DNA of 64,000 nt. Origin: Anatilimnocola aggregata (GTDB lineage: Bacteria > Planctomycetota > Planctomycetia > Pirellulales > Pirellulaceae). Location of the stretch: the NCBI RefSeq assembly GCF_007747655.1, contig NZ_CP036274.1, positions 1,674,001 to 1,738,000 on the forward strand. Reading direction: 5' to 3'. Numbering within the stretch: the stretch's first letter is position 1; the number at the start of each line of letters is the position of its first letter. Of the stretch, positions 7,653 through 64,000 are shown in pieces. A program made the position numbers and the translations under genes. The notes under the pieces were generated by a model, which was not told where the DNA came from, searched no databases, and saw only the letters and a list, made by a program, of their open reading frames with translations.

Positions 7653-7734
7653 CGGAGGGCAAGGGGCTCGAACCCTCAACCCCTTACGGGGCAACTGATT
7701 TCGAATCAGTCTCCTAGCCATTCGGTTACCCTCC
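7653..7734 (-). tRNA. tRNA-Ser(CGA)
   Basis: On the minus strand the acceptor strands GGAGGGT and GCCCTCC pair with discriminator G, and the anticodon stem ACTGA/TCAGT holds the loop TTCGAAA (anticodon CGA, Ser, UCG codons). The long variable arm GCCCCGTAAGGGGT is typical of tRNA-Ser, and the T-arm is GAGGG-TTCGAGC-CCCTT. CCA is not encoded. The gene is complete at 82 bases. It sits at the boundary between accessory DNA and chromosomal genes, and its 3' end faces the integrase. Confidence 0.92.
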
Positions 7735-7948
7735 GGACAGCTTCTATATCTACCTTGGAACGGCGTGCGCGGCAAGATGTTCTGCCGGTGAAAGTTGGTG
7801 GATTGGGACGAGGGATGGTTGGTGGGGGCTTTCCGCAACGGCAGCAATCTATCATCGTGATACAGGCTCAATCTGCTTAGGCCCGCAGGTGTTTGCTAGA
7901 GTTGCTGGCCGCACCGCGTTTTCCGTTCTCTCGCCCAGTTCGCCCGCC

Positions 7949-8665
7949 ATGAAAATCCTGCTGATGATTACCTGCCTGGGGGATGTAATGCGTCCCGGAG
8001 CAGGCATTGCCACGGTCAAATTGCTAAGGCGTTTGGGACACGAAGTGGAGTTTCGGTCAGCACAGACTTGTTGCGGGCAGCCGATGTACAACAGCGGGTA
8101 TGCCGACCTGGCGCGCGAGCAGGCGAAGCATACGATCGACGTGTTCGCTGGCGACGATCCCGTCGTGGTGCCGTCGGGGAGTTGCGCGGCGATGCTGAAA
8201 GTCGAGTATCCGCATCTGCTCGAACATCACGAGCCGCTGCATGCTGCTGCGTTGCAATTGGCAGCGCGCACGTTTGAGCTGAGCGACTTTCTCGTGAACC
8301 AGTTGAAGGTGACCGACGTAGGGGCGAAGTACAACGGCAAAGTCGCCTATCACTTTGCTTGTCACTTACGCATGCTAAAGCAGCAAACGGAAGCTGAAAC
8401 GCTGATCCGCCATGTGCAAGGCGCGGAGTTGATGCCGCTCCATCATCAGGACCAATGCTGTGGCTTTGGCGGATCGTTTGCGGTTCGCTATCCGGCCGTC
8501 AGTGGCAACATGGTCGACGACAAGATGAAATGCGTGCTCGACACCGGGGCCGATTGTCTCGTTTCGACCGATGCGGGCTGCTTGATGAACATCGGTGGGC
8601 GCTTGCACCGCGAAGGGAAGACAATTGAAGTGCTGCACCTGGCTGAGTTGTTGGAGCGGCGATAA
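7949..8665 (+). CDS. lutA: LutA-like (Fe-S)-binding CCG-domain protein
   Basis: ATG 7949 gives 238 residues, the usual LutA/YkgE length. Two CCG motifs are present: TCCGQP at about residues 45-50 and QCCGFGG at about 172-178, each with the upstream Cys needed for the cysteine-rich (heterodisulfide reductase-type) domain (TCLGD near residue 9, FACHLR near 138). In Bacillus LutA acts with LutB and LutC in oxidising L-lactate to pyruvate, probably in electron transfer. Here no lutB or lutC gene lies next to it, so it may work with distant partners. It is the first gene on the chromosomal side of tRNA-Ser. Confidence in the family is high; confidence in lactate as substrate is moderate. Confidence 0.82.
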   Translation: MKILLMITCLGDVMRPGAGIATVKLLRRLGHEVEFRSAQTCCGQPMYNSGYADLAREQAKHTIDVFAGDDPVVVPSGSCAAMLKVEYPHLLEHHEPLHAAALQLAARTFELSDFLVNQLKVTDVGAKYNGKVAYHFACHLRMLKQQTEAETLIRHVQGAELMPLHHQDQCCGFGGSFAVRYPAVSGNMVDDKMKCVLDTGADCLVSTDAGCLMNIGGRLHREGKTIEVLHLAELLERR

Positions 8666-8891
8666 CTAGCAGCCTATTGCGGCTATCAGCGCAGCGATAG
8701 CAATGCTGCTGTCTCAATCTGTGCGGCTGAAAGATTACGGTCTGTAGCGATGCTGCTTGATCTGACGATGTGGCCGGTAGCCCACCGCTTCGCCGCCATC
8801 CCAATCGCATTTCTTCGGACCTAGCACTTCGCTTTCTCATGTGCGAGAGCGCTGCGTTCGTACCCGCCCAGAATTTCCCCCGGAGTTTGTA

Positions 8892-10283
8892 GTGAAACTC
8901 AATCAACTTGGGAGACAACTGGTTGGCCTGTTAGCAAAAGCAGCGCCGTTGCTGCTTGTGGCAGGGAGCAGTTTTGTCGCTCCTCAGTTGCTGCTTGCCC
9001 AACAGCCCACGCAGTTTCAAACTGCCGCGCACTTCCGACAGTCGGCATTAGTGCAGGCCGAAGCCATTCCTTCACCACCGGGCATTTCTCAAGATGTGCC
9101 GCAACCTCAGCCTTCGCTATCGCTGGCGAATTTGGAAGAGTTAGCGCTGTGCAGTAATCCCTCGCTCGCGCGAGCGCAGGCGCAGGTGCAAATGGCGCGC
9201 GGCAATTGGATTCAGGTTGGTTTGCCGCCAAATCCTTCCGTGGGCTATTCCGGCCAGCAATTGGGGAGCGGTGGCCTGGCAGAGCAGCACGGCATCTATG
9301 TAACGCAGGAGATTGTCCGTGGCGGAAAGTTGAACCTCAATCGACAAGCGGCTGCTCACGAAGTTGCGCAGGCTGAACAGAATGTTATCGCGCAACAGTT
9401 TCGCGTGTTGACCGACGTACGAATGGCCTTTTACCAGGTGTTGATTGCCCAGCGGCAGATTGATGTGGCACACGTCATTGCCGGCAATTACACCAAGGCA
9501 GTCGAAACGACCGATCGCTTGTTTCAGGCTCAGGAGATCAGCAAGCTGGAAGTGCTGCAAGCCAAATTCGAATACGAAACTGCTCAAGTGACTCTGCGAA
9601 ACGCGCAGCATCGGCATGCCGCAGCCTGGCAATCGTTGACCGCAGTTGTTGGTCAGCCACACCTCGCGCCGCAAGCCTTGGCTGGCGATGCCGCCATGGC
9701 TCCCAAGCCATTCGACTATCAGCAAACGCTTCAACACATTCTGTCGGCAAGTCCCGAGATTGCCGCGGCGGTCAGCAATATCGAGCGGGCCCGTTGGGCC
9801 TATCAGCGAGCGCTCGTCGAAAAGAAGGGGAACGTCAACGTTCAAGGTTTGTATAATTGGCAAGACAACGGCATTGGCGGACAGCCCGATGGCTCGTTGG
9901 TGGTCGATATGCCGATTCCCATTTGGAACAAGAATCAAGGTGGTATCGTGCGGGCGCAAGGCGAAGTCGCAGTCGCCGAGCGAGCGCTGCAACAAGTCGA
10001 ACTTGACCTGCAGCAGCGGTTGGCTCCGGTCTATGAACGCTATCAAAATGCCCGTAACCAGGTCGAGCGATACGAAAAAACGATCCTCACTCTTGCCAAA
10101 GAATCGTCCGATCTGTCGCGTAAGGCTTTTCAGGCAGGGGAACTGAATTATCTCAGCCTGCTGCTCGCTGAACGAAGCTTCGCAACAGCGAATCTCGCCT
10201 ACCTCGACGCCCTGCGTGATCTACGACTGGCCGAAGCTGAAATGGATGGATTCTTGTTGCAGAACAGTTTATCGGCGAGGTGA
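8892..10283 (+). CDS. TolC/CzcC-type outer-membrane efflux protein
   Basis: I choose GTG 8892 behind CGGAG, giving 463 residues; the longer frame from 8841 has no obvious ribosome-binding site. A signal peptide-like stretch (LLAKAAPLLLVAGSSFVAP) precedes a Gln/Pro-rich linker. The body shows the two-fold helical repeats of the outer membrane efflux family: LSLANLEELALCSNPSLARA, then VRMAFYQVLIAQRQIDVA and LEVLQAKFEYETAQV, and in the second half LVVDMPIPIWNKNQGG and LSRKAFQAGELNYLSLLLAE. These match CzcC-like metal or drug efflux subunits forming the outer-membrane channel of RND or ABC tripartite pumps. No pump or adaptor gene is adjacent, so substrate and partners are unknown. Confidence 0.85.
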   Translation: MKLNQLGRQLVGLLAKAAPLLLVAGSSFVAPQLLLAQQPTQFQTAAHFRQSALVQAEAIPSPPGISQDVPQPQPSLSLANLEELALCSNPSLARAQAQVQMARGNWIQVGLPPNPSVGYSGQQLGSGGLAEQHGIYVTQEIVRGGKLNLNRQAAAHEVAQAEQNVIAQQFRVLTDVRMAFYQVLIAQRQIDVAHVIAGNYTKAVETTDRLFQAQEISKLEVLQAKFEYETAQVTLRNAQHRHAAAWQSLTAVVGQPHLAPQALAGDAAMAPKPFDYQQTLQHILSASPEIAAAVSNIERARWAYQRALVEKKGNVNVQGLYNWQDNGIGGQPDGSLVVDMPIPIWNKNQGGIVRAQGEVAVAERALQQVELDLQQRLAPVYERYQNARNQVERYEKTILTLAKESSDLSRKAFQAGELNYLSLLLAERSFATANLAYLDALRDLRLAEAEMDGFLLQNSLSAR

Positions 10284-10464
10284 GCAGGGCATTACGATCG
10301 CTTAAGCTCCTGTTGACAAGGGCCGGCCGAACTCCCCGGCACCGTTTGACAACTGCCCTGGCTCAGCCAATACTTGGCACCACCGTTAGCTACCGGTGCC
10401 GAGCCAAAAGCACACAAGCGCAGGGATCGGTCTGTCCGCAGACAATGCGCGCAAGGAGTTGGGA

Positions 10465-12327
10465 ATGGCGAAGAAAGAGCGCTGGGCTTCGCGCCTGGGG
10501 TTGGTGTTGGCGATGGCTGGGAATGCCGTCGGCCTGGGAAATTTTTTGCGATTCCCGGCACAAGCCGCTGCCAATGGCGGCGGTGCCTTCTTAATTCCTT
10601 ACCTCGTCGCACTCCTGGTGATGGGAGTACCACTGATCTGGGTCGAATGGGCCATGGGGCGCTACGGCGGACAGTTCGGGCACCACTCGACGCCGGGCAT
10701 TTTCGATAGCATCGGTCGGCGACCATACTGGAAGTACATCGGCGTGTTCGGGCTCTGGTCGAACCTGATTATCGCGGCATTTTATCTGTACATCGAATCG
10801 TGGACGCTGGCTTACGCCGGCTATTCGCTGCTCGGCGGCTTTGAAACGACATCCGCTGGTGCTTTCTTCGACCGCATCACCGGTAACTTCCCCAACAGCA
10901 TCTGGGCCTTCAGTGTCCCGGGATTGGTGATGTTCGCGCTCTGCATTATTATCAACATCTTCATCCTCTCGCGCGGTCTCGCCGCGGGGATCGAGCTCGT
11001 CTCCAAGATCGGCATGCCACTGCTGATTGTGTTTGCCATTATCATCGCGATTCGCGGGCTGCTGATTGTGCCCGGCGTCGAACCAATTACCGACCAGGCC
11101 CGCGCGGCAGCAGGCTTCGGCATCATCGATCCGCAAGCGGTCGCCAGCCCGTTTGAGGGGCTAAGATTCTTGTGGGAGCCCAAGTTCGATAGCCTCGCCA
11201 ATCCGGCTGTCTGGCTGGCCGCAGCGGGGCAGATTTTTTTCACCCTGTCGATCGGCATGGGTTCGATTCATTGCTACGCCTCCTATTTGCGTGAGCAAGA
11301 TGACATCGCCCTCACCGGTTCGACTGCTGCCTGGACGAACGAATTTTGCGAAGTGATTCTCGGCGGCAGCATCCTGCTCCCGATTGCGGTGGCCTATCTG
11401 GGGTTGTCCCAGGTTCAAGAGATGACCGCCGGTGGCAGCGGTTTTGGCATTGGCTTCATGACCTTTCCCACACTCTTTCAGAAGTGGGGCGTGCTCGCTC
11501 CCGTCGCAGGTTTCTTATGGTTTGGTCTCCTCTTCTTTGCAGCCATCACCAGTTCACTAGCGATGGGCCAGCCGATCATGTCCTTCTTTCAGACCGAGTT
11601 CGGTCTGTCGCGTTCGAAGAGTGCCCTCGCCTTTGGTGCGATGCTGTTGCCGTTTGCTGCTCCGGTTGCCTTTCTGGCGCAAGGTTCGTTCTTTGACGAG
11701 TTCGATTATTGGGCTGGTACCTTTGCCCTCGTGGTCCTGGCCACCGCAGAGGCAGTCCTCTTCGCTTGGATCTTCGGCATGGATCGCGCTTGGGCAGAAA
11801 TCGGCAAAGGTGCCGAAATGCGCGTGCCACGCCCGTTCTACTACATCATCAAATATGTCACTCCGACCTTCCTGATCCTGATCTTGGTTGCGTATACGTT
11901 TCAGCCAGCCGGCCGGATGGAAGTCACCGATGGCGTTACGCTGCAGAAGAAGCTGGTCGAAAAAGGCTGGACGCCGTACATCACCGGCTGGTTCGGCAAA
12001 GAGCCGATTCCGAAGTGGGAATGGTCGCCGTCGGGCATGATTGGCAAGCTGTTGTATCGCGACTTGGCCTTGCAAAAGCAGGATCTGCAGTTGCAGTTGA
12101 TGGCGGTGGGCATCACGCCCGAACAGCACCAAGCGACACGCGACAAAATCGACTTTCTACCCAAGCTGCAAATGCTGCGTCAGCTTGATCGGGGGGCGAT
12201 GATCTTCGCCTTCCTGTTCTTCTGTGGATTGGTCTGGTATGCCTGGCGCAAGCGGGCTGCTGCTACCGATACTCTCCCCGCGAAGTCAACCGGCAGCAAA
12301 CCTGCTGCGAAGGAACCCAAACGATGA
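10465..12327 (+). CDS. Sodium-dependent transporter, neurotransmitter:sodium symporter (NSS/SNF) family
   Basis: ATG 10465 follows AAGGAG and yields 620 residues. The N-terminus carries the NSS signature SRLGLVLAMAGNAVGLGNFLRFP, with the unwound TM1 sodium site (GNAVGLGN). About twelve hydrophobic segments follow, including WNKFCEV-like TM6 features (GQIFFTLSIGMGSIHCYASY). The family couples sodium entry to uptake of amino acids or related compounds; LeuT and MetP are members. The C-terminus has an extra hydrophilic stretch before a last helix (about residues 575-600). The stop codon overlaps the ATG of a 42-residue gene that looks like the MetS small subunit, supporting a MetPS-like two-part transporter. 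Substrate is not predictable from sequence alone. Confidence 0.9.
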   Translation: MAKKERWASRLGLVLAMAGNAVGLGNFLRFPAQAAANGGGAFLIPYLVALLVMGVPLIWVEWAMGRYGGQFGHHSTPGIFDSIGRRPYWKYIGVFGLWSNLIIAAFYLYIESWTLAYAGYSLLGGFETTSAGAFFDRITGNFPNSIWAFSVPGLVMFALCIIINIFILSRGLAAGIELVSKIGMPLLIVFAIIIAIRGLLIVPGVEPITDQARAAAGFGIIDPQAVASPFEGLRFLWEPKFDSLANPAVWLAAAGQIFFTLSIGMGSIHCYASYLREQDDIALTGSTAAWTNEFCEVILGGSILLPIAVAYLGLSQVQEMTAGGSGFGIGFMTFPTLFQKWGVLAPVAGFLWFGLLFFAAITSSLAMGQPIMSFFQTEFGLSRSKSALAFGAMLLPFAAPVAFLAQGSFFDEFDYWAGTFALVVLATAEAVLFAWIFGMDRAWAEIGKGAEMRVPRPFYYIIKYVTPTFLILILVAYTFQPAGRMEVTDGVTLQKKLVEKGWTPYITGWFGKEPIPKWEWSPSGMIGKLLYRDLALQKQDLQLQLMAVGITPEQHQATRDKIDFLPKLQMLRQLDRGAMIFAFLFFCGLVWYAWRKRAAATDTLPAKSTGSKPAAKEPKR

Positions 12328-12452
12328 GCCACATGTCGACATCTTCGGTCATCATGCTCGTCGCAGTCTGGGGCGTGATCTTGGCGAATATGCTGTATTG
12401 CTTCTTTCGCCTGCTTACGTCGCAGCGCAGCTTCGGTGGCGAAGACGAATAG
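12324..12452 (+). CDS. MetS-type small subunit of NSS transporter
   Basis: This 42-residue gene overlaps the transporter stop as ATGA, so translation is coupled. It reads MSHMSTSSVIMLVAVWGVILANMLYCFFRLL and ends in GGEDE: one transmembrane helix followed by a short polar tail. Corynebacterium MetP requires a similar tiny one-helix partner, MetS, and MetS-like genes are known directly downstream of many bacterial NSS transporters. Size, topology and position all fit. It is shorter than most gene-finder cutoffs. The role is inferred from the MetPS precedent. Confidence 0.8.
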   Translation: MSHMSTSSVIMLVAVWGVILANMLYCFFRLLTSQRSFGGEDE

Positions 12453-12483
12453 ATTTCTGCTGGCCAAGGTTCGCACAGCAACC

Positions 12484-13620
12484 CTACGAAGTTCCCAGCA
12501 CACGCATCATTTCAGCTGGTGACGTGAGTCCTTGCTCAACGAGCGTTTGCACTCTCACCTTGATGGGAACCATGCCCGCTGCTTCGACCAGTCGTTGCAA
12601 CTCGGCTGCATCGGCATGGCGCAACACGGCTGCAGTGAGTTCGCTGTTTAGGGGTGGAAGCAGTTCGGCAACAGCGATTCGTCCGGAGTAACCGCTCCGT
12701 TGGCAACGGTCGCAACCCGCGCTGCCGCAAGTGCAGAGTTTTCGGAGCAACCGCTGATGCAGCAGTAGTGACAACCCGCTGCGGAGCAAGTACGGCTCGA
12801 TTCCCATTTCGGCCAGTCGGGAGATTGCTTCGCATACGCTGCCGGCATGAAAGGTGGAAATGACCAATTGCCCGGTGAGCGCCGCTTGAAACAGAGCTGC
12901 CGCCGTGGGCTGATCGCGCACTTCGCCGAGCAGTACCACCTCGGGATCTTGTCGCAGGAGTGCGCGCAGGCCACTCGCCAAGTCGAAGCCGGCAGCAGGA
13001 TTCACCTGCGATTGCGAGACGCCCGTGAGCGCCACTTCAATCGGATCTTCGAGCGAGACAATGCTCCGCGCTCCATGCGTCGATTGCACCACGTGCCGCA
13101 GGCAGGCGTAAGCAGTCGTCGTCTTGCCACCCCCAGCGGGGCCGGTGAGCAACACCGCGCCGCTGGTTCGCTGCACGGCATTTTGCAATGCGGTGGTGAT
13201 TTCAGCGGGAAGTCCGAGATCGACTAACTGCAATAGTTCCTGCGGCGCTACGAACAGCCGGATCACGACCCGCTCGCCATACAGTGACGGAAATGTACTC
13301 ACGCGCATCTCAGCCCGCGCGTCGGCAGCTGGAATTCGCCCTTCTTGTGGAATGTCGGTGCGATAGGTGAGAAGCCGTGCCAGAACTTTCAGCCGCGCGG
13401 CGATATCGGTCCCCTCACCGCGCGAAAACGTCCCCACACTCAAAAGTACGCCATCCAGCCGCCAACGAACTTCAATACCAGCTGTTGTTGGTTGCAGGTG
13501 AATGTCGCTCGCCCGAGCTTCCGCCGCCGCCGCTAGCAATTGGTCGGCAAAGTGCGTCGCATAGTTCAGATCGCGCGGATCAAGCTGTTGCAGTCGCGCG
13601 GCGAGCGAAGTTGCTGGCAT
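12484..13620 (-). CDS. GspE/PilB-type secretion ATPase, short form
   Basis: The 378-residue protein has an ASDIHLQP motif at the N-domain, a Walker A (GPAGGGKTTT, about residues 160-169), an Asp box (IVSLEDPIE), a Walker B (VVLLGEVRD) and a His box (VISTFHAGS). A zinc-binding cluster CTCGSAGCDRC follows near residue 310. These define the ATPases that power type II secretion and type IV pilus assembly. The protein starts almost directly at the GspE N2 domain and lacks the N-terminal MshEN/N1 region of full-length GspE (about 500-570 residues). No other gsp or pil gene is nearby. It could be a standalone paralogue. It runs convergent to the transporter pair. Confidence 0.88.
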   Translation of the reverse strand: MPATSLAARLQQLDPRDLNYATHFADQLLAAAAEARASDIHLQPTTAGIEVRWRLDGVLLSVGTFSRGEGTDIAARLKVLARLLTYRTDIPQEGRIPAADARAEMRVSTFPSLYGERVVIRLFVAPQELLQLVDLGLPAEITTALQNAVQRTSGAVLLTGPAGGGKTTTAYACLRHVVQSTHGARSIVSLEDPIEVALTGVSQSQVNPAAGFDLASGLRALLRQDPEVVLLGEVRDQPTAAALFQAALTGQLVISTFHAGSVCEAISRLAEMGIEPYLLRSGLSLLLHQRLLRKLCTCGSAGCDRCQRSGYSGRIAVAELLPPLNSELTAAVLRHADAAELQRLVEAAGMVPIKVRVQTLVEQGLTSPAEMMRVLGTS

Positions 13621-57601: not shown

Positions 57602-58525
57602 CTATTCCCGCTGGCCGCGAACCGACCAGAAGCGCTCAGAGGGCATGACCATGGAAGTAATTCGCAGGCCGAACTTTTCGCCGACCTTCACTGCTTCGCC
57701 CACCGCGAACTCGTGCTCGCCCACAGCCAGCGACAACGGCTGTTCGCACGATTGATCGAACTGAATGATCGACCCCGGGCCGATTTCCAAAATCCGACCG
57801 ACGGGTAGCTGGGTTGTGGCCAGTGAAGCCACAATCGGCACCTTAATCTTCAGCAAGCTGCGGGTGTAGGAAGGGAGTGCCGGAATGCCGTCTTCAAAAT
57901 CCTGACTAACGGGTGCTGCGGGCGCGCGTAGTACATTGGCAAAACGTCCCCCCGCAGGTGTGGCCACTGCAGCCGCGGGCACAAAGACCGGTTCGCTGAT
58001 TGCCGGAGCGGCTGCAGCCGGAGCTCCGGCAGAGAGGAGGAGTTGATGATCGGCCACGCCAATCAAGACCGCGGGCAGGCTCTTGCTTCCGAATTGAATT
58101 GTGAGCGGCAGAACTTCGGGCGCTGCCGTCGCCTGGCAACGAAGTAGCGCTTCTTGCAGGTTCTCGAGGCGGGCCGTTTGATCGCTAGTGGGCATGAGTG
58201 CTTCGGGAAGCAGGATCATGCCGAACTCTTGCGAGAGCGTGGCGAGTTTGCTTTTGCCCGTGGCATCTGGCGCGGCGATCCACCCCGGCAGCGCGCCTTC
58301 GCCATCGGCCACTAACAGGGCATAAGCCCCGGCAGCCTGATTGAGCACGACCGCGAGTCCCGCGTGATTCCAGGCATCCTGAGCAACGAGAGTCAGCAGG
58401 TCCGCTTTTTCACCGAGCGTGAATTCGCACTTCTCGCCGAAGGCCCGTTGCCACGCTTCGGCAGCTTCGCCCGCGCCATTGCGACAGGCCGTAACGATCT
58501 CGGCAGTGATGAGTGGCGACGACAT
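57602..58525 (-). CDS. FliN/FliM-like SPOA-domain protein
   Basis: The 307-residue protein ends with a SPOA (surface presentation of antigens) domain at about residues 222-297: LKIKVPIVASLATTQLPVGRILEIGPGSIIQFDQSCEQPLSLAVGEHEFAVGEAVKVGEKFGLRITSM. It matches the FliN/FliM C-terminus (V.V.LG....I..IL.L..G.VI.L....P...V.....GE.V..G..G..I). The N-terminal two thirds are Ala-rich, with LTLVAQDAWNHAGLAVVLNQAAGAYALLVADGEG, like a FliY/CheC-type region, but no CheC phosphatase motif was seen. No flagellar or type III secretion genes are in the window. It may serve a switch complex encoded elsewhere. Confidence 0.72.
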   Translation of the reverse strand: MSSPLITAEIVTACRNGAGEAAEAWQRAFGEKCEFTLGEKADLLTLVAQDAWNHAGLAVVLNQAAGAYALLVADGEGALPGWIAAPDATGKSKLATLSQEFGMILLPEALMPTSDQTARLENLQEALLRCQATAAPEVLPLTIQFGSKSLPAVLIGVADHQLLLSAGAPAAAAPAISEPVFVPAAAVATPAGGRFANVLRAPAAPVSQDFEDGIPALPSYTRSLLKIKVPIVASLATTQLPVGRILEIGPGSIIQFDQSCEQPLSLAVGEHEFAVGEAVKVGEKFGLRITSMVMPSERFWSVRGQRE

Positions 58526-58805: not shown

Positions 58806-60278
58806 ATGGTCGTGCGAACTTCCCTCACTTCGCTTGTGATCTTCGCGGCAGCGATTGCTTCGGCAGTTGCCCAGGATCAGATGCCTTGGGTCGAAGAGTT
58901 TCCGCAGGCTTGCCAACAGGCAAGTGCCGAAGGGAAGCTCGTGCTGCTCCACTTCTATTCCGACGACTGCCCGCCCTGCGTCAAAGTCGAGAAGAACGTG
59001 TTCAGCCGGCAAGATGTCGCAGCAACCGTCGGCAAAAACTACGTGCCGATGAAGATTCATGCTCGCAAGAATCCGGAACTTGCCACCAAGTACAACGTGC
59101 GTCAGTGGCCGACCGATGTTTTCGTGACTCCAAGCGGCCAGGAAGTGTTTCGCACCGTCAGCCCACAGACCCCGCTCGAATACACCAACTTGATGAACAG
59201 CGTAGCTGCCCAGACCGGTGTTGGTCTTGGTCGCAATGGTAACAATCTGCCGCCGCACCAGCAGATCGCTGCCAATCAAGCTGCCCCGAATCAACCCGGA
59301 GCGATTCCTGGAGCCCCGGCCCCGAATGGTCCGTGGGTGATGCCTGCTCCGCGTGACGCCATTGCCCAGGTAAGCGCTCAAGCCAATTCGCAGGCTCAAT
59401 GGGTGACGAACGGCGCTTCTTCGGCCGCTCAGCAATATGCGCAGCAAACTCAGCAGAACGTGCAACAAGCCCAGCAAAACCTGCAGCAGTCGGGCCAACA
59501 GTCGTGGCAATTTGCCCAGGCTCAAGCCGGCGCAGCGGTGAATCAAACGACTCAGGCCCTGGATCAAACCTATCAAGCCACGCAACAGGCTGCTCAACAA
59601 GCGGCCCAAGCGACGCACGATTCGACACAAGCCGCGGCCAACAACGCCAAAGAAGTATTGAACCGCTACACTACGCCGATGACGGCACCACCTGCCGCGG
59701 TCGCCGGCAATCCGGCTGGCTTTGCCCCGTGGCAACCCGCGGCTGCTCCGCCGCAACAGCCCGCCGTTCAACCTGTTTCGGCTCAGGCCTATCAGCCTGT
59801 CTCGCCAACCCAAACCTTGGCTCCGAATGCCGTCGGCACTGCTTCGCCTTACGAATCGAATCCCGCGCTCGCACCGCCCCCTGCCGCGGCCTTGGCCAGT
59901 GGCACCTATCCCATCGTGATGGAAGGCTTCTGCCCTGTCACGCTGCTTAGCAAGAAAGAATGGAAGAAGGGGCAGCCTGAGTTCGGCGCGGTCCATCGCC
60001 GTCGCACGTTCCTGTTCGCTTCGGCCGAAGCTCAGCAAACGTTCCTCGCCGACCCCGATCGCTACAGCCCCGTGATGGTCGGCTACGATCCCGTCAAGTT
60101 CATGCAAACCGGCGAACTGATCGACGGTCGCGCTACGTTCGGTCTGACCTATCGCAAGCAGATTTATCTCTTTAGCGACGATGCCTCGCTCAAGACCTTC
60201 TGGCAAAATCCTCGCCAGTTCACCGACGGCCTACGACAAGCCATGACGCAGAACGAACGGGGCACCACCATTCGCTAG
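58806..60278 (+). CDS. Exported thioredoxin-fold protein with Gln-rich linker and YHS-like C-terminus
   Basis: The 490-residue protein has a signal peptide (MVVRTSLTSLVIFAAAIASAVA). A thioredoxin domain follows, with CPPC at residues 55-58 (HFYSDDCPPCVKVEKNVF) and the cis-Pro in VRQWPTDVFV. Residues 135-365 are Gln/Ala/Pro-rich and repetitive (QQTQQNVQQAQQNLQQ, TQQAAQQAAQAT). The C-terminal 110 residues (GFCPVTLLSKKEWKKGQ, GAVHRRRTFLFASAEAQQTFLADPDRYSPVM and a second copy-like GYDPVKFMQTGELIDGRATFGLTYRKQIYLFSDDASLKTF) resemble YHS domains. This suggests thiol-disulfide or metal chemistry in the envelope. Confidence 0.8.
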   Translation: MVVRTSLTSLVIFAAAIASAVAQDQMPWVEEFPQACQQASAEGKLVLLHFYSDDCPPCVKVEKNVFSRQDVAATVGKNYVPMKIHARKNPELATKYNVRQWPTDVFVTPSGQEVFRTVSPQTPLEYTNLMNSVAAQTGVGLGRNGNNLPPHQQIAANQAAPNQPGAIPGAPAPNGPWVMPAPRDAIAQVSAQANSQAQWVTNGASSAAQQYAQQTQQNVQQAQQNLQQSGQQSWQFAQAQAGAAVNQTTQALDQTYQATQQAAQQAAQATHDSTQAAANNAKEVLNRYTTPMTAPPAAVAGNPAGFAPWQPAAAPPQQPAVQPVSAQAYQPVSPTQTLAPNAVGTASPYESNPALAPPPAAALASGTYPIVMEGFCPVTLLSKKEWKKGQPEFGAVHRRRTFLFASAEAQQTFLADPDRYSPVMVGYDPVKFMQTGELIDGRATFGLTYRKQIYLFSDDASLKTFWQNPRQFTDGLRQAMTQNERGTTIR

Positions 60279-60528: not shown

Positions 60529-63500
60529 GTGCCAGCCGTCCTCCGCAAAGCGTCTGAACCTATTCCGGGCTACCGCCTCGTCCAACGCGTCGGCGCGGGT
60601 GGCTATGGCGAAGTCTGGACGGCAGAAGCGCCGGGCGGACTCATCAAGGCGATCAAGTTCGTCTACGGACTGCTCGACGAAGACCGCGGCTCGCGCGAAA
60701 TGAAGGCCCTGCAGCGCATCAAGGGCGTGCGACATCCGTTCTTGCTCTCAATCGAGCGGATCGAGATTATCGACGGTCAGTTGATCTTCGTCACCGAGCT
60801 TGCAGACAACAGCCTGAAGGATCGCTTCGACCAATGCCGCAAGGAAGGCCGGCCCGGCATCCCGCGCGACGAATTGTTGCAACACCTGCGCGATACGGCC
60901 GATGCGCTCGACTACATGAACGAGCATCACACGTTGCAGCATCTCGATGTGAAGCCGGAAAATCTGCTGCTTGTTGGTGGACGCGTCAAGGTGGCCGACT
61001 TCGGGCTCGTTAAGGATCTGCACGAAGCGGCCGCGTCGATGATGGGCGGCCTGACGCCCATTTACGCGCCGCCTGAAGTCTTCGAAGGACGACCGACCAA
61101 GTTCAGCGATCAATACAGCCTGGCGATTGTCTATCAAGAGATGCTCAGTGGAGTGTTGCCATTTCCCGGCAAGACAGCTGCGCAACTGGCAGCTCAGCAC
61201 TTGAACGCGCGCCCGCGGATGGCGGCGCTCCCCGAGGCCGACCAACAAGTGATAGGCCGCAGCCTATCGAAAAATCCCAATGAGCGGTTCGCAAATTGCC
61301 GCGAGATGGTAGCTGCCCTCAACAAGGCCACGCAGCAGATTGTCGCCGCGCGCATGACACATGCCCGCAGCGAACTGATGAACGAAATGGGGAGGCACAT
61401 CACTCAAGGCGCGACGCAGGCGCATAATGCGGCCCCAGCGACTCATCAGCCAGCAGCGCCCGAAACGCCGTTGCCACCTCTTTCTTATGCCACCGAAGCT
61501 GCCCGCACTCCCGACCAGATGCTCGCTAGCCTGGACGAAGCCTCGCAGCAGGCCGACTCGATTCAAGAAGACAATCGGCTCGTGGCGTCGGCCGACGATC
61601 TGCACGTTGATCTGAAGCAGCGATTGCAAACCACCGATGTTCCGCCCCCGGAGTTCGACGTCCTCAATTGGTCCCCTCAGCCCACCTTGCTGATCGGCCT
61701 GGGGGGCATTGGCGGCAAAGTCCTCGGCCGGCTGAAGCAGATCTTTGCCGAGACGCCGCACGGCGCGCCATTGCAGACCTTGGTGCTCGATTCCGATCGC
61801 CGCGAATCACTCGAAAACTGTCCATCATCCCCTGGCACTACATTCCGGCCCGATGATTTCATGCACTTGCCGCTGCGCCGCAGCAGCGACTATCGGGACG
61901 ACTCGCGCCGCATGCTCGAGTGGCTCGGTCGTCGTTGGCTATACAACATTCCCCGCTCGCAGCAGACCGAAGGTCTGCGTCCGCTGGGTCGCCTGGCAAT
62001 GGTCGATCATGCAGACGAAATTTGGAAGTCGTTCCGCACATCGCTACAACGTTTAGCCCGCCCGATTCCGGGAAGTGACCAACCACAAACGCCCCGGGTC
62101 ATTGTCGTGGCCGGTTCGGGCGGCGGTACCGGCAGCGGCATGGTCATCGATATTGTCGTTGGGCTGCAGCAGTTGTTCGACGAATTAAAACTCAATGCCA
62201 GTGACCTGAGTGTAGTCTTGGCCCACACCACGCCGCGCACCGCCGCGGGAGTGCAATTGGCCACGGCCAACACCTGCGCCTTGCTCGCCGAATGGCAGCA
62301 TCAACTTCGCGCGGGTGGACAATTCCCCGGCGACCCGGCTTGCGGATTGACGCCGCGGACGATCGATCGTCCGCCGCGCACGCGCCTGATTCACATGGGA
62401 GAAGAACTCTCCAACGAAGATTTCGACACGGCCTGCGATTCGTTAGCCGATCTGATTGCACTCGAAGTTTCGACTCCTGTCGATAACTTTTTCCGCGCGA
62501 CCGCAGCTGCCGATCTCGTAAAGAGTTCCGCTTCGACCCAGGCACAATTTCGTACATCGGGACTGGTGCGAGTAGGTTTCACGCGCGATGACCTTGCCGC
62601 CCGTGCGGTTCGCCACCTCTGCTTCTCGCTCGTCGAACGTTGGTTGGGAAAGCCGAAATCGCAAGAATCGATTCGTGCAAGCAGTGCCGCGAAATCGACG
62701 AATATCTTGCCCTCGCGGCAGACGCAATCAGGCACCGATTGCCGTATGAAAGAGGCGTTTCTCGATCTACAAGCCCAGAAGCAGGCAACTGCCTGGGGAC
62801 TAGATACCGAAACGCTGATTAAACAATTGATCGAGTTTGCCGGCAGCCAGTTGGGTGGTAACCCCGACAGCTTCTTTCAAGAGTTGACGCAAACGCTGGC
62901 GAAAGAAGCAGGGACCGCCTCGCCCGTGCAACGCTGGCTGGCGACCACGACGGAACTGTTTGGCCCACGCACTTCGGAAGCAGTCGCCCCGGGACAAGAG
63001 AAAGGTGTTCCGGCCCTAGTGCAAGCCACCGAAGCTGCGTTGAAAGAACGAATCAACGCACTGAGCGCCACCCTTAAGGCTTGGCTGCTGCATTATCTGG
63101 ATGATCCCCAGCATCGCCTCTACGCCTCGCAAAAATCTCTTGGCTGGTTTCAAGCCCACTGCCGCAGCATGCTCGATCAGCTGCGCGATGTGCGCCGCCG
63201 CATCGCGCAGGAAACTGGCTCGCTTGAGCAGTACCTCGTCGCGCTGCCAACCGATTGGAAGAAGGCCAAGGCCAGCGTAAAAAAAGCTCAAGGGCCGGAT
63301 CCCGACCACGCTTTTCAACAGTTCTGCCGCCTTCGACTGCAAGACTTCGCTGCTCAACTGGCTGGTAAAATCGTTCAAGCGATGCAAGGGACGCTCAGCA
63401 GCGCCGGCGATCTGCTGGTCGATCTGCACCGCGAACTGCAGTTCCTCGCCTCCGTCTTCGATGACCAGGAAGAGTCCGGAGCAGTTCCTGCTACTCCCGC

Positions 63501-64000
63501 CTTACTCGGACAATTGCGCAAGCTGGTCTCCGATCAATTGAAAGCAGCCGATGCGGAACAATCGACAGCGCTCGACGATCAATTGACACGCACGGTATTG
63601 CTACCTGCCGGTGGCATGCTCTCTGCTTTAATTGGTGGTGGCGATGGCCGGACGCGATTACTCGCGCAGTTGGAACGCGACAGTCGCACGCTGGTGCTAC
63701 GACAACTCGAATCGCTCGATATCGCCGCGGTGCTTGCCGAAGGGGCCGCCATCGATCCGCAACTTGCAGCCGATTGGCGAACGCTCGTCGAACAAGCGCA
63801 GCCTCGTTGGCAAGGGACTGCGGCTGAACGTCGGTTCCTTTGCGTGTTACCCGAGCGCTCACAAGCCTCGCGCGATCCGCAGCTGTGGCAGAAGAGTCTG
63901 CAATCGACTTCGTTCCGCGAAGCACCTGCGCTTGTCGATGCACCGGGAGCCGATCTATTGTTGTGTTTCGATCTCGGTCCTCTTACCACCAACGATGTCC
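60529..64000 (+). CDS. Ser/Thr protein kinase fused to a tubulin/FtsZ-like domain (open at right edge)
   Basis: From GTG 60529 (AAGGAAG upstream) the frame is open to the window end, at least 1157 residues. The kinase (about 14-275) has a Gly loop VGAGGYGEV (21-29), Lys43 in AIKF, catalytic HLD (138-140, Arg of HRD replaced by Leu), DVKPEN and DFG (157-159). A Pro/Ala-rich linker leads to a domain beginning PTLLIGLGGIGGKVLGRL (about 385-402). That matches the Tubulin-like family (Pfam Tubulin_2), with the GTP-binding GSGGGTGSG at about 529-537. The rest is helical. The protein combines kinase signalling with a putative GTP-dependent cytoskeletal domain. The C-terminus is not visible. Confidence 0.85.
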   Translation, partial: MPAVLRKASEPIPGYRLVQRVGAGGYGEVWTAEAPGGLIKAIKFVYGLLDEDRGSREMKALQRIKGVRHPFLLSIERIEIIDGQLIFVTELADNSLKDRFDQCRKEGRPGIPRDELLQHLRDTADALDYMNEHHTLQHLDVKPENLLLVGGRVKVADFGLVKDLHEAAASMMGGLTPIYAPPEVFEGRPTKFSDQYSLAIVYQEMLSGVLPFPGKTAAQLAAQHLNARPRMAALPEADQQVIGRSLSKNPNERFANCREMVAALNKATQQIVAARMTHARSELMNEMGRHITQGATQAHNAAPATHQPAAPETPLPPLSYATEAARTPDQMLASLDEASQQADSIQEDNRLVASADDLHVDLKQRLQTTDVPPPEFDVLNWSPQPTLLIGLGGIGGKVLGRLKQIFAETPHGAPLQTLVLDSDRRESLENCPSSPGTTFRPDDFMHLPLRRSSDYRDDSRRMLEWLGRRWLYNIPRSQQTEGLRPLGRLAMVDHADEIWKSFRTSLQRLARPIPGSDQPQTPRVIVVAGSGGGTGSGMVIDIVVGLQQLFDELKLNASDLSVVLAHTTPRTAAGVQLATANTCALLAEWQHQLRAGGQFPGDPACGLTPRTIDRPPRTRLIHMGEELSNEDFDTACDSLADLIALEVSTPVDNFFRATAAADLVKSSASTQAQFRTSGLVRVGFTRDDLAARAVRHLCFSLVERWLGKPKSQESIRASSAAKSTNILPSRQTQSGTDCRMKEAFLDLQAQKQATAWGLDTETLIKQLIEFAGSQLGGNPDSFFQELTQTLAKEAGTASPVQRWLATTTELFGPRTSEAVAPGQEKGVPALVQATEAALKERINALSATLKAWLLHYLDDPQHRLYASQKSLGWFQAHCRSMLDQLRDVRRRIAQETGSLEQYLVALPTDWKKAKASVKKAQGPDPDHAFQQFCRLRLQDFAAQLAGKIVQAMQGTLSSAGDLLVDLHRELQFLASVFDDQEESGAVPATPALLGQLRKLVSDQLKAADAEQSTALDDQLTRTVLLPAGGMLSALIGGGDGRTRLLAQLERDSRTLVLRQLESLDIAAVLAEGAAIDPQLAADWRTLVEQAQPRWQGTAAERRFLCVLPERSQASRDPQLWQKSLQSTSFREAPALVDAPGADLLLCFDLGPLTTNDV

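Follow-up and report, generated by a model that had tools for sequence, protein, structure and literature searches.

A kinase-tubulin fusion protein of the FtsZl1 family in Anatilimnocola aggregata and the signalling-type genes conserved beside it in planctomycetes

We analysed a stretch of 64,000 nucleotides of Anatilimnocola aggregata DNA (contig NZ_CP036274.1, positions 1,674,001 to 1,738,000; the whole stretch is called the window), at the end of which lies a gene whose product joins a serine/threonine (Ser/Thr) kinase to a divergent domain of the tubulin superfamily, belonging to the FtsZl1 (Tubulin_2, PF13809) family. The fusion itself is already published and is not new, because Makarova and Koonin, who defined the FtsZl1 family in 2010, report four planctomycete members with an N-terminal kinase in the part of their paper drawn on here (PMC2875224). 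What is new is a conserved gene set in which the kinase is accompanied by an FHA protein, an AAA+ ATPase and proteins of the cyclic diguanylate (c-di-GMP) type. Because of these apparent FHA and AAA+ partners, the conserved set suggests a signalling hub and not a replacement for a missing FtsZ. The domains, the conserved kinase residues, the predicted fold and the conservation of the partners were established from sequences and from models built on them.

The open reading frame (ORF) starts with a GTG at 60529 on the forward strand, preceded by GGAAAGGAAG, and runs as 60529..63999 for 1157 residues, remaining open at the end of the window. In the flanking DNA, which was taken from the source genome itself (9.0 Mb, one contig), the stop codon lies 98 bp beyond the window, at the equivalent of 64098 (L002:10529-14098). 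The complete protein thus has 1189 residues, and an earlier note on the window was right to call the visible 1157 incomplete. Full-length relatives are present in many genomes, so the fused frame is not a product of chance. The kinase and the tubulin/FtsZ-like domain that the same note had read in one chain were both recognized by Pfam, the former with an E-value of 1.7e-27 and the latter, as PF13809, with 6.5e-28 (98.4 bits against a cut-off of 27). A conserved RLHTRxDxxW motif (residues 1174-1183) follows the C-terminal alpha/beta element just outside the window.

We examined the kinase in two alignments, A6 (the window protein and 62 relatives, 63 rows) and A4 (35 rows). The lysine of VAIK, the glutamate of helix alphaC, the catalytic aspartate of HLD, the asparagine, DFG and the glutamate of APE are kept in every A6 row that has letters at the position (62 or 63 of 63), and in A4 the catalytic residues are kept in 34 of the 35 rows, the exception being L051, which has HLN. 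HLD in place of HRD, which had been pointed out from the window alone, turned out to be the norm for the family in A6. Judged from its sequence, the window protein has the catalytic residues of a Hanks-type Ser/Thr kinase. When the full-length model was compared with the Protein Data Bank (PDB) by Foldseek, the kinase occupied all 50 matches listed, the best of them PknB (1mru). The protein thus shares the kinase fold and residues of PknB-like bacterial Ser/Thr kinases; it differs from them in having HLD and a fused tubulin-like domain, and, in contrast to them, it has no PASTA domain that Pfam could find. The L051 protein (genome G005, 8029-11379) is a fusion with HLN for HLD and a changed glycine loop, and its kinase is probably inactive.

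Because the kinase filled the listed matches of the full-length protein, a second model was made without it. The AlphaFold model of the window protein (1157 residues) had a predicted local distance difference test score (pLDDT) of 85.1 and a predicted template modelling score (pTM) of 0.66; for L078, a relative whose C-terminus is complete, the model of the 809 residues behind the kinase reached 91.1 and 0.86. The L078 model gave 126 PDB matches at an E-value of 0.001 or lower. When the chains were classed by entry title, 49 of the best 50 of these 126 were FtsZ, CetZ, TubZ, tubulin or microtubules, and the other was 12dl, an egg cytoplasmic lattice. The top matches among those listed were CetZ proteins (3zid, E 1.8e-6; 4b45, E 2.3e-6), with template modelling scores by target of 0.47-0.50 for three CetZ chains. 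In a viral structure library five matches were found at 0.001 or lower, the first a phage FtsZ, the third a PhuZ and three unnamed. A PDB sequence search with the tubulin part of the window protein alone found nothing; the family profile gave 36 matches, each weak (best E 0.29), all 36 named FtsZ, TubZ or tubulin/FtsZ. The models confidently predict for the GTPase part a tubulin-type fold, the lack of which the earlier note had named as grounds for dropping its reading. The likeness to FtsZ, tubulin, CetZ and TubZ lies in this predicted fold; unlike them, the window protein stays under the PF00091 Tubulin cut-off (13.4 against 33 bits) and carries a kinase and a long helical region. Identity in the fold matches listed for the L078 model is about 9-15%.

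The nucleotide motifs GLGGIGG and GSGGGTGSG that had first drawn attention to the domain are present in the window protein, in agreement with the GGGTG[ST]G signature and the T1 glycines of the family. G392, G532 and G537 within these loops, and D541 elsewhere in the tubulin-like part, are kept in 63 of 63 rows of A6, other loop positions being variable. A further difference from the FtsZ and tubulin families concerns T7. Across residues 612-711, around H7, T7 and H8, no conserved pattern of the NxDxxD type was seen in the 63 rows, the best acidic columns being 641 (89%) and 656 (74%; Arg in the window protein). A dynamic FtsZ-like filament is therefore not indicated. The long helical region noticed from the window alone is present in the predicted model, where DSSP makes residues 688-1090 mostly helical, and its length differs among relatives. 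According to the passages of PMC2875224 cited here, the elements after H5 of FtsZl1 could not be confidently placed in 2010; the present models, in contrast, have both strands and helices in that part. From the succession of elements behind H7 in the models (strand, helix, long helical region, strand, helix, strand, strand, helix) we offer, as a suggestion only, that the tubulin C-terminal domain is interrupted by a helical insertion, the strands at 673-682 and 1100-1153 belonging to a single sheet.

We asked what recurs beside the fusion gene by clustering the ORFs around 39 loci without preconception and reading the recurring clusters by eye. Three families stood out, an FHA-EAL protein (c1, 27 loci), an AAA+ ATPase with conserved Walker-type motifs (c2, 20 loci) and a REC-GGDEF-CBS protein (c3, 16 loci); the other recurring families were, by eye, ones common among planctomycetes. 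Profiles of c1-c3 were then run on 119 loci, of which 2 had no focal match over threshold and 10 were duplicates, leaving 107 distinct loci, 86 of which extend 5.5 kb or more upstream. In the interval from -6.5 to +3 kb, c1 was found in 69 of these 86, c2 in 63 and c3 in 28, and 82 had at least one of the three somewhere in the locus. The four that had none are the window, its congener (L057), L046, which has no kinase, and L051. L078, a near relative in the tree, also lacks c1-c3 in a locus that covers 3.1 kb upstream. Gene order is variable and the genes remain together; in L166-L168 an intact-GGDEF protein, FHA-EAL, AAA+ and the fusion are consecutive on one strand. The window genome has the fusion at 1.735 Mb, the AAA+ gene at 3.266 Mb, an intact FHA-EAL gene at 7.222 Mb (G000:C1 7221588-7222661) and a degenerate one (6539039-6540172) adjoining a degenerate REC-GGDEF-CBS gene at 6.537-6.540 Mb, and the congener has the same partner genes at unlinked sites. 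The linkage is lost in the genus of the window and the partner genes are retained.

Co-occurrence was examined across genomes as well. The AAA+ family has widespread paralogues near 630 bits and lower, and a separate group above 700 bits. In the close set of 60 genomes this group is present in 31 of the 37 with PF13809 and in none of the 23 without (Fisher p 2e-11, relatedness ignored). Among 214 genomes sampled across the phylum, where the seven best candidates per genome were scored, this group occurs in exactly nine, which are the nine shown to have the kinase fusion. Full-length FHA-EAL proteins are present in 33 of the 37 positive and 2 of the 23 negative genomes of the close set. The four positive genomes without one are G005, whose fusion is the HLN form and which also lacks the specific AAA+ group; G040, which has no kinase in its PF13809 ORF and keeps the AAA+ group; and G022 and G055, in which nothing scored above threshold with the fusion profile. 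Since all 33 genomes of this set with an intact kinase fusion have FHA-EAL, and G005 and G040 do not, the presence of FHA-EAL appears to track that of the kinase, as would be foreseen for a reader of the kinase product, the two telling losses being one genome each. In the window genome two AAA+ paralogues (G000:C1 6810015-6811280 and 5524943-5526202, 628 and 551 bits) are of a type found in most of the 60 genomes, with or without PF13809.

The FHA-EAL partner exists in two forms. Among its eight FHA sites, seven never vary where a c1 protein has letters (88 or 89 of 90), and one shows a single deviation; a full set of the eight EAL catalytic residues is kept in just 52 of the 90. A c3 protein scoring above 280 is present at 30 loci, in all of which the EAL is degenerate, and accompanies not one of the 52 intact EALs; lower-scoring GGDEF neighbours, for example in L063, fall outside this count. 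The GGDEF motif itself is lost in 31 of 32 aligned c3 proteins, that of the window genome included. In a tree of 105 fusion proteins the types cluster and do not form single clades (7 and 10 changes, where shuffling gave means of 34 and 26), and the window groups with a c3-type relative (support 99).

As far as the cited passages describe them, the planctomycete FtsZl1 members share with the present protein the order of kinase, tubulin-like domain with loops for binding guanosine triphosphate (GTP), long helical region and C-terminal domain. Their fusion is restated in PMC9871819, a passage of PMC11032199 ranks the tubulin-like domain first among the extra domains of planctomycete kinases that are purely cytoplasmic, and FtsZl1 is listed for Gemmata massiliana in PMC4672568; the passage drawn on from a review of division in this superphylum (PMC5147048) does not mention the family. 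No description of the conserved partner set was found in open-licence papers, an absence that is no proof, and the supplementary tables of the 2010 paper may list some partners. The passages of PMC10936438 and PMC7159879 share terms with it but do not describe a set of kinase, FHA-EAL and AAA+ genes. A reviewer quoted in PMC2875224 notes a diguanylate phosphodiesterase adjoining the Pirellula staleyi gene; compared with the passages cited from that paper, the partner genes reported here recur across the planctomycete kinase-fusion branch.

Kinases with FHA partners are known from PknB with GarA or OdhI and from the type VI PpkA-Fha pathway. Such pairs of a kinase and its own FHA reader may serve as a working analogy; here, in contrast, the pair is predicted, the FHA domain being joined to EAL and the kinase to a tubulin-like part. 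The reading that we prefer, at slightly less than an even chance, is that the kinase-tubulin protein is a nucleotide-switched assembling scaffold served by an FHA-EAL reader tied to c-di-GMP and by an AAA+ remodeller. In such a hub, presumably cytoplasmic, GTP binding would let the tubulin-like parts associate and gather the kinase domains, which would phosphorylate themselves or clients on threonine, and the dedicated FHA-EAL protein would bind the phosphothreonine, possibly on the kinase-FtsZl1 protein itself. In many lineages the EAL part seems competent to break down c-di-GMP, and the hub would thereby be tied to the level of this nucleotide; in other lineages, and in one of the two FHA-EAL copies of the window genome, the EAL part and the partner GGDEF lack catalytic residues and may act as binding modules. 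Remodelling or disassembly of the hub is probably the task of the dedicated AAA+ ATPase. The more detailed proposition of a tubulin-family phospho-signalling hub in which the kinase writes phosphothreonine, FHA-EAL reads it and tunes c-di-GMP, and AAA+ resets assembly, some lineages having lost the EAL and GGDEF enzymes with the reader still strictly constrained, strikes us as rather unlikely. If it is true, a single system, for which we found no description in open-licence papers, brings together a cytoskeletal-type protein, Ser/Thr phosphorylation and c-di-GMP. The partner set gives FtsZl1 a testable function and a minimal gene group.

Several observations weigh against such a hub. We found no biochemistry or other experiment on FtsZl1 in the open-licence literature. 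The threonine of T4 is kept in just 35 of the 63 A6 rows, so GTP binding is not assured for every relative. Neither in the window genome nor in the congener do the partners adjoin the fusion, the partner profiles were derived from neighbours of the fusion gene and so favour such copies, and the related genomes compared are not independent samples. FHA-EAL occurs in two PF13809-negative genomes, G013 and G017, and in G009, G021 and G035 the AAA+ gene is seen only as contig-edge fragments that leave its subgroup unsettled. A candidate FHA-type phosphothreonine motif, picked post hoc, was found in 30 of 97 linkers against a shuffled mean of 13.8; a control motif with Pro for Thr was also over-represented (27 against 17.5), and the window protein has no copy of the candidate. 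With so weak an excess over shuffles, this motif was rejected as the FHA target.

That the protein is instead a division or shape filament standing in for FtsZ, with the kinase regulating it, we consider improbable. The window genome encodes a single PF13809 protein. Nothing in it exceeds the PF00091 cut-off, a test to which 13 of 14 control genomes responded, so that it has no recognizable FtsZ; this, from a search confined to the window genome and the controls, would suit a stand-in, as would the predicted tubulin-like fold. However, PF13809 occurs in 37 of the 60 close genomes, the window's own included, and in 14 of the 214 genomes across the phylum (completeness at least 90), of which 9 have the kinase fusion, 4 have no kinase in the same ORF and 1 (G086) is cut at a contig start. 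So patchy a protein cannot be a general FtsZ substitute, related species manage without it, the T7 acids are not conserved, and its partners are signalling-type proteins. We therefore rejected the FtsZ substitute as the main explanation on the grounds of distribution and the missing T7 motif. Thus, of what the earlier note had proposed, the kinase, the tubulin-like domain with its fold and the helical region stand, and the role in FtsZ-less division does not; for research on planctomycete division, the kinase-FtsZl1 protein occurs too sporadically to be the FtsZ that is missing. Among named species, a scan gave 182 relatives, of which 80 were kept, 76 titled planctomycetes, 3 "bacterium" and 1 Nealsonbacteria on a short contig. 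The last (L086, Candidatus Nealsonbacteria) is a planctomycete-type kinase-FtsZl1 fusion and most likely a binning error. Proteins of the family without a kinase include a second PF13809 protein without c1-c3 partners in a genome that also has a fused copy (L046, G009, 8726-11920) and two tandem genes in a distant planctomycete (L174, G119, 7693-13555).

The partner genes also bear on the proposal of Makarova and Koonin, made for the family from its vWA, GTPase and OmpA neighbours in the passages cited (PMC2875224), that FtsZl1 takes part in membrane remodelling. Extended to the present protein, phosphorylation would be the control and AAA+ the motor, and the ATPase is indeed a constant partner in the kinase-fusion branch. 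We nevertheless think a membrane-remodelling machine unlikely, given that the recurring neighbours are FHA-EAL, AAA+, REC/GGDEF/CBS and common planctomycete families. No vWA, GTPase or OmpA-like partner was among the recurring clusters read by eye at the 39 loci, in which diverse proteins could be missed and for which no dedicated search was made. Very improbable, in our estimate, is a biological-conflict (defence) system like those that Kaur et al. (2020) describe, in passages of PMC7159879, as GTPase-centred and containing tubulin-domain proteins in Firmicutes and Actinobacteria. This precedent, and matches of the kinase part to PADLOC kinase models such as PD-T4-6 and mad6, speak for it; against it, the PADLOC matches of the fusion are confined to the kinase and the linker behind it, the AAA+ protein of the window genome matches PADLOC weakly (best 2.6e-8), and no PADLOC model fits the FHA-EAL and REC/GGDEF/CBS proteins of that genome. 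Linked GTPases, vWA proteins, HSP70 and variable effectors, which were not searched for one by one, were likewise missing from the recurring clusters. The defence reading was rejected, its PADLOC matches resting on the kinase region. The conserved signalling partners thus leave a signalling hub as the reading that we prefer, and the features of the protein on which it is built are collected in Table 1.

Table 1. Features of the kinase-FtsZl1 gene in window coordinates.
Feature	Position	Strand	Basis
Kinase-FtsZl1 fusion gene	60529..64000 (to 64098 in full)	+	ORF call, full-length homologues
Ser/Thr protein kinase domain, residues 15-255	60571..61293	+	Pfam, residue conservation
HLD motif	60940-60948	+	conservation
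Linker, residues 278-363, low confidence, probably disordered	61360..61617	+	AlphaFold pLDDT <50
Tubulin_2 (PF13809) tubulin-like GTP-binding domain, residues 387-697	61687..62619	+	Pfam, predicted fold
T1-like loop GLGGIGG, residues 390-396	61696..61716	+	sequence, alignment
T4 (tubulin signature) loop GSGGGTGSG, residues 529-537	62113..62139	+	sequence, alignment
Long, mostly helical region, about residues 707-1095	62647..63813	+	DSSP of model, alignment
C-terminal alpha/beta element, residues 1100-1153	63826..63987	+	models, alignment

An operon of the fusion with its neighbours in the window was considered and rejected, as the thioredoxin-like gene recurs in 1 other of the 39 loci, and ThuA and FliMN_C in none. 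The thioredoxin-like gene (58806-60275, forward strand) codes for a thioredoxin-like domain, a long Gln/Ala-rich stretch and an end with YHS and FAP206 matches below cut-off. Two genes upstream of the fusion, at 57605-58525 on the reverse strand, lies a gene with a C-terminal FliMN_C domain (flagellar C-ring, FliN-type; 1.4e-17), the rest of which has no Pfam match. In the congener (L057, 1308-2885) a vWA-like ORF with a metal site of the DxSxS type, recognized by eye only, lies a few kb upstream of the fusion.

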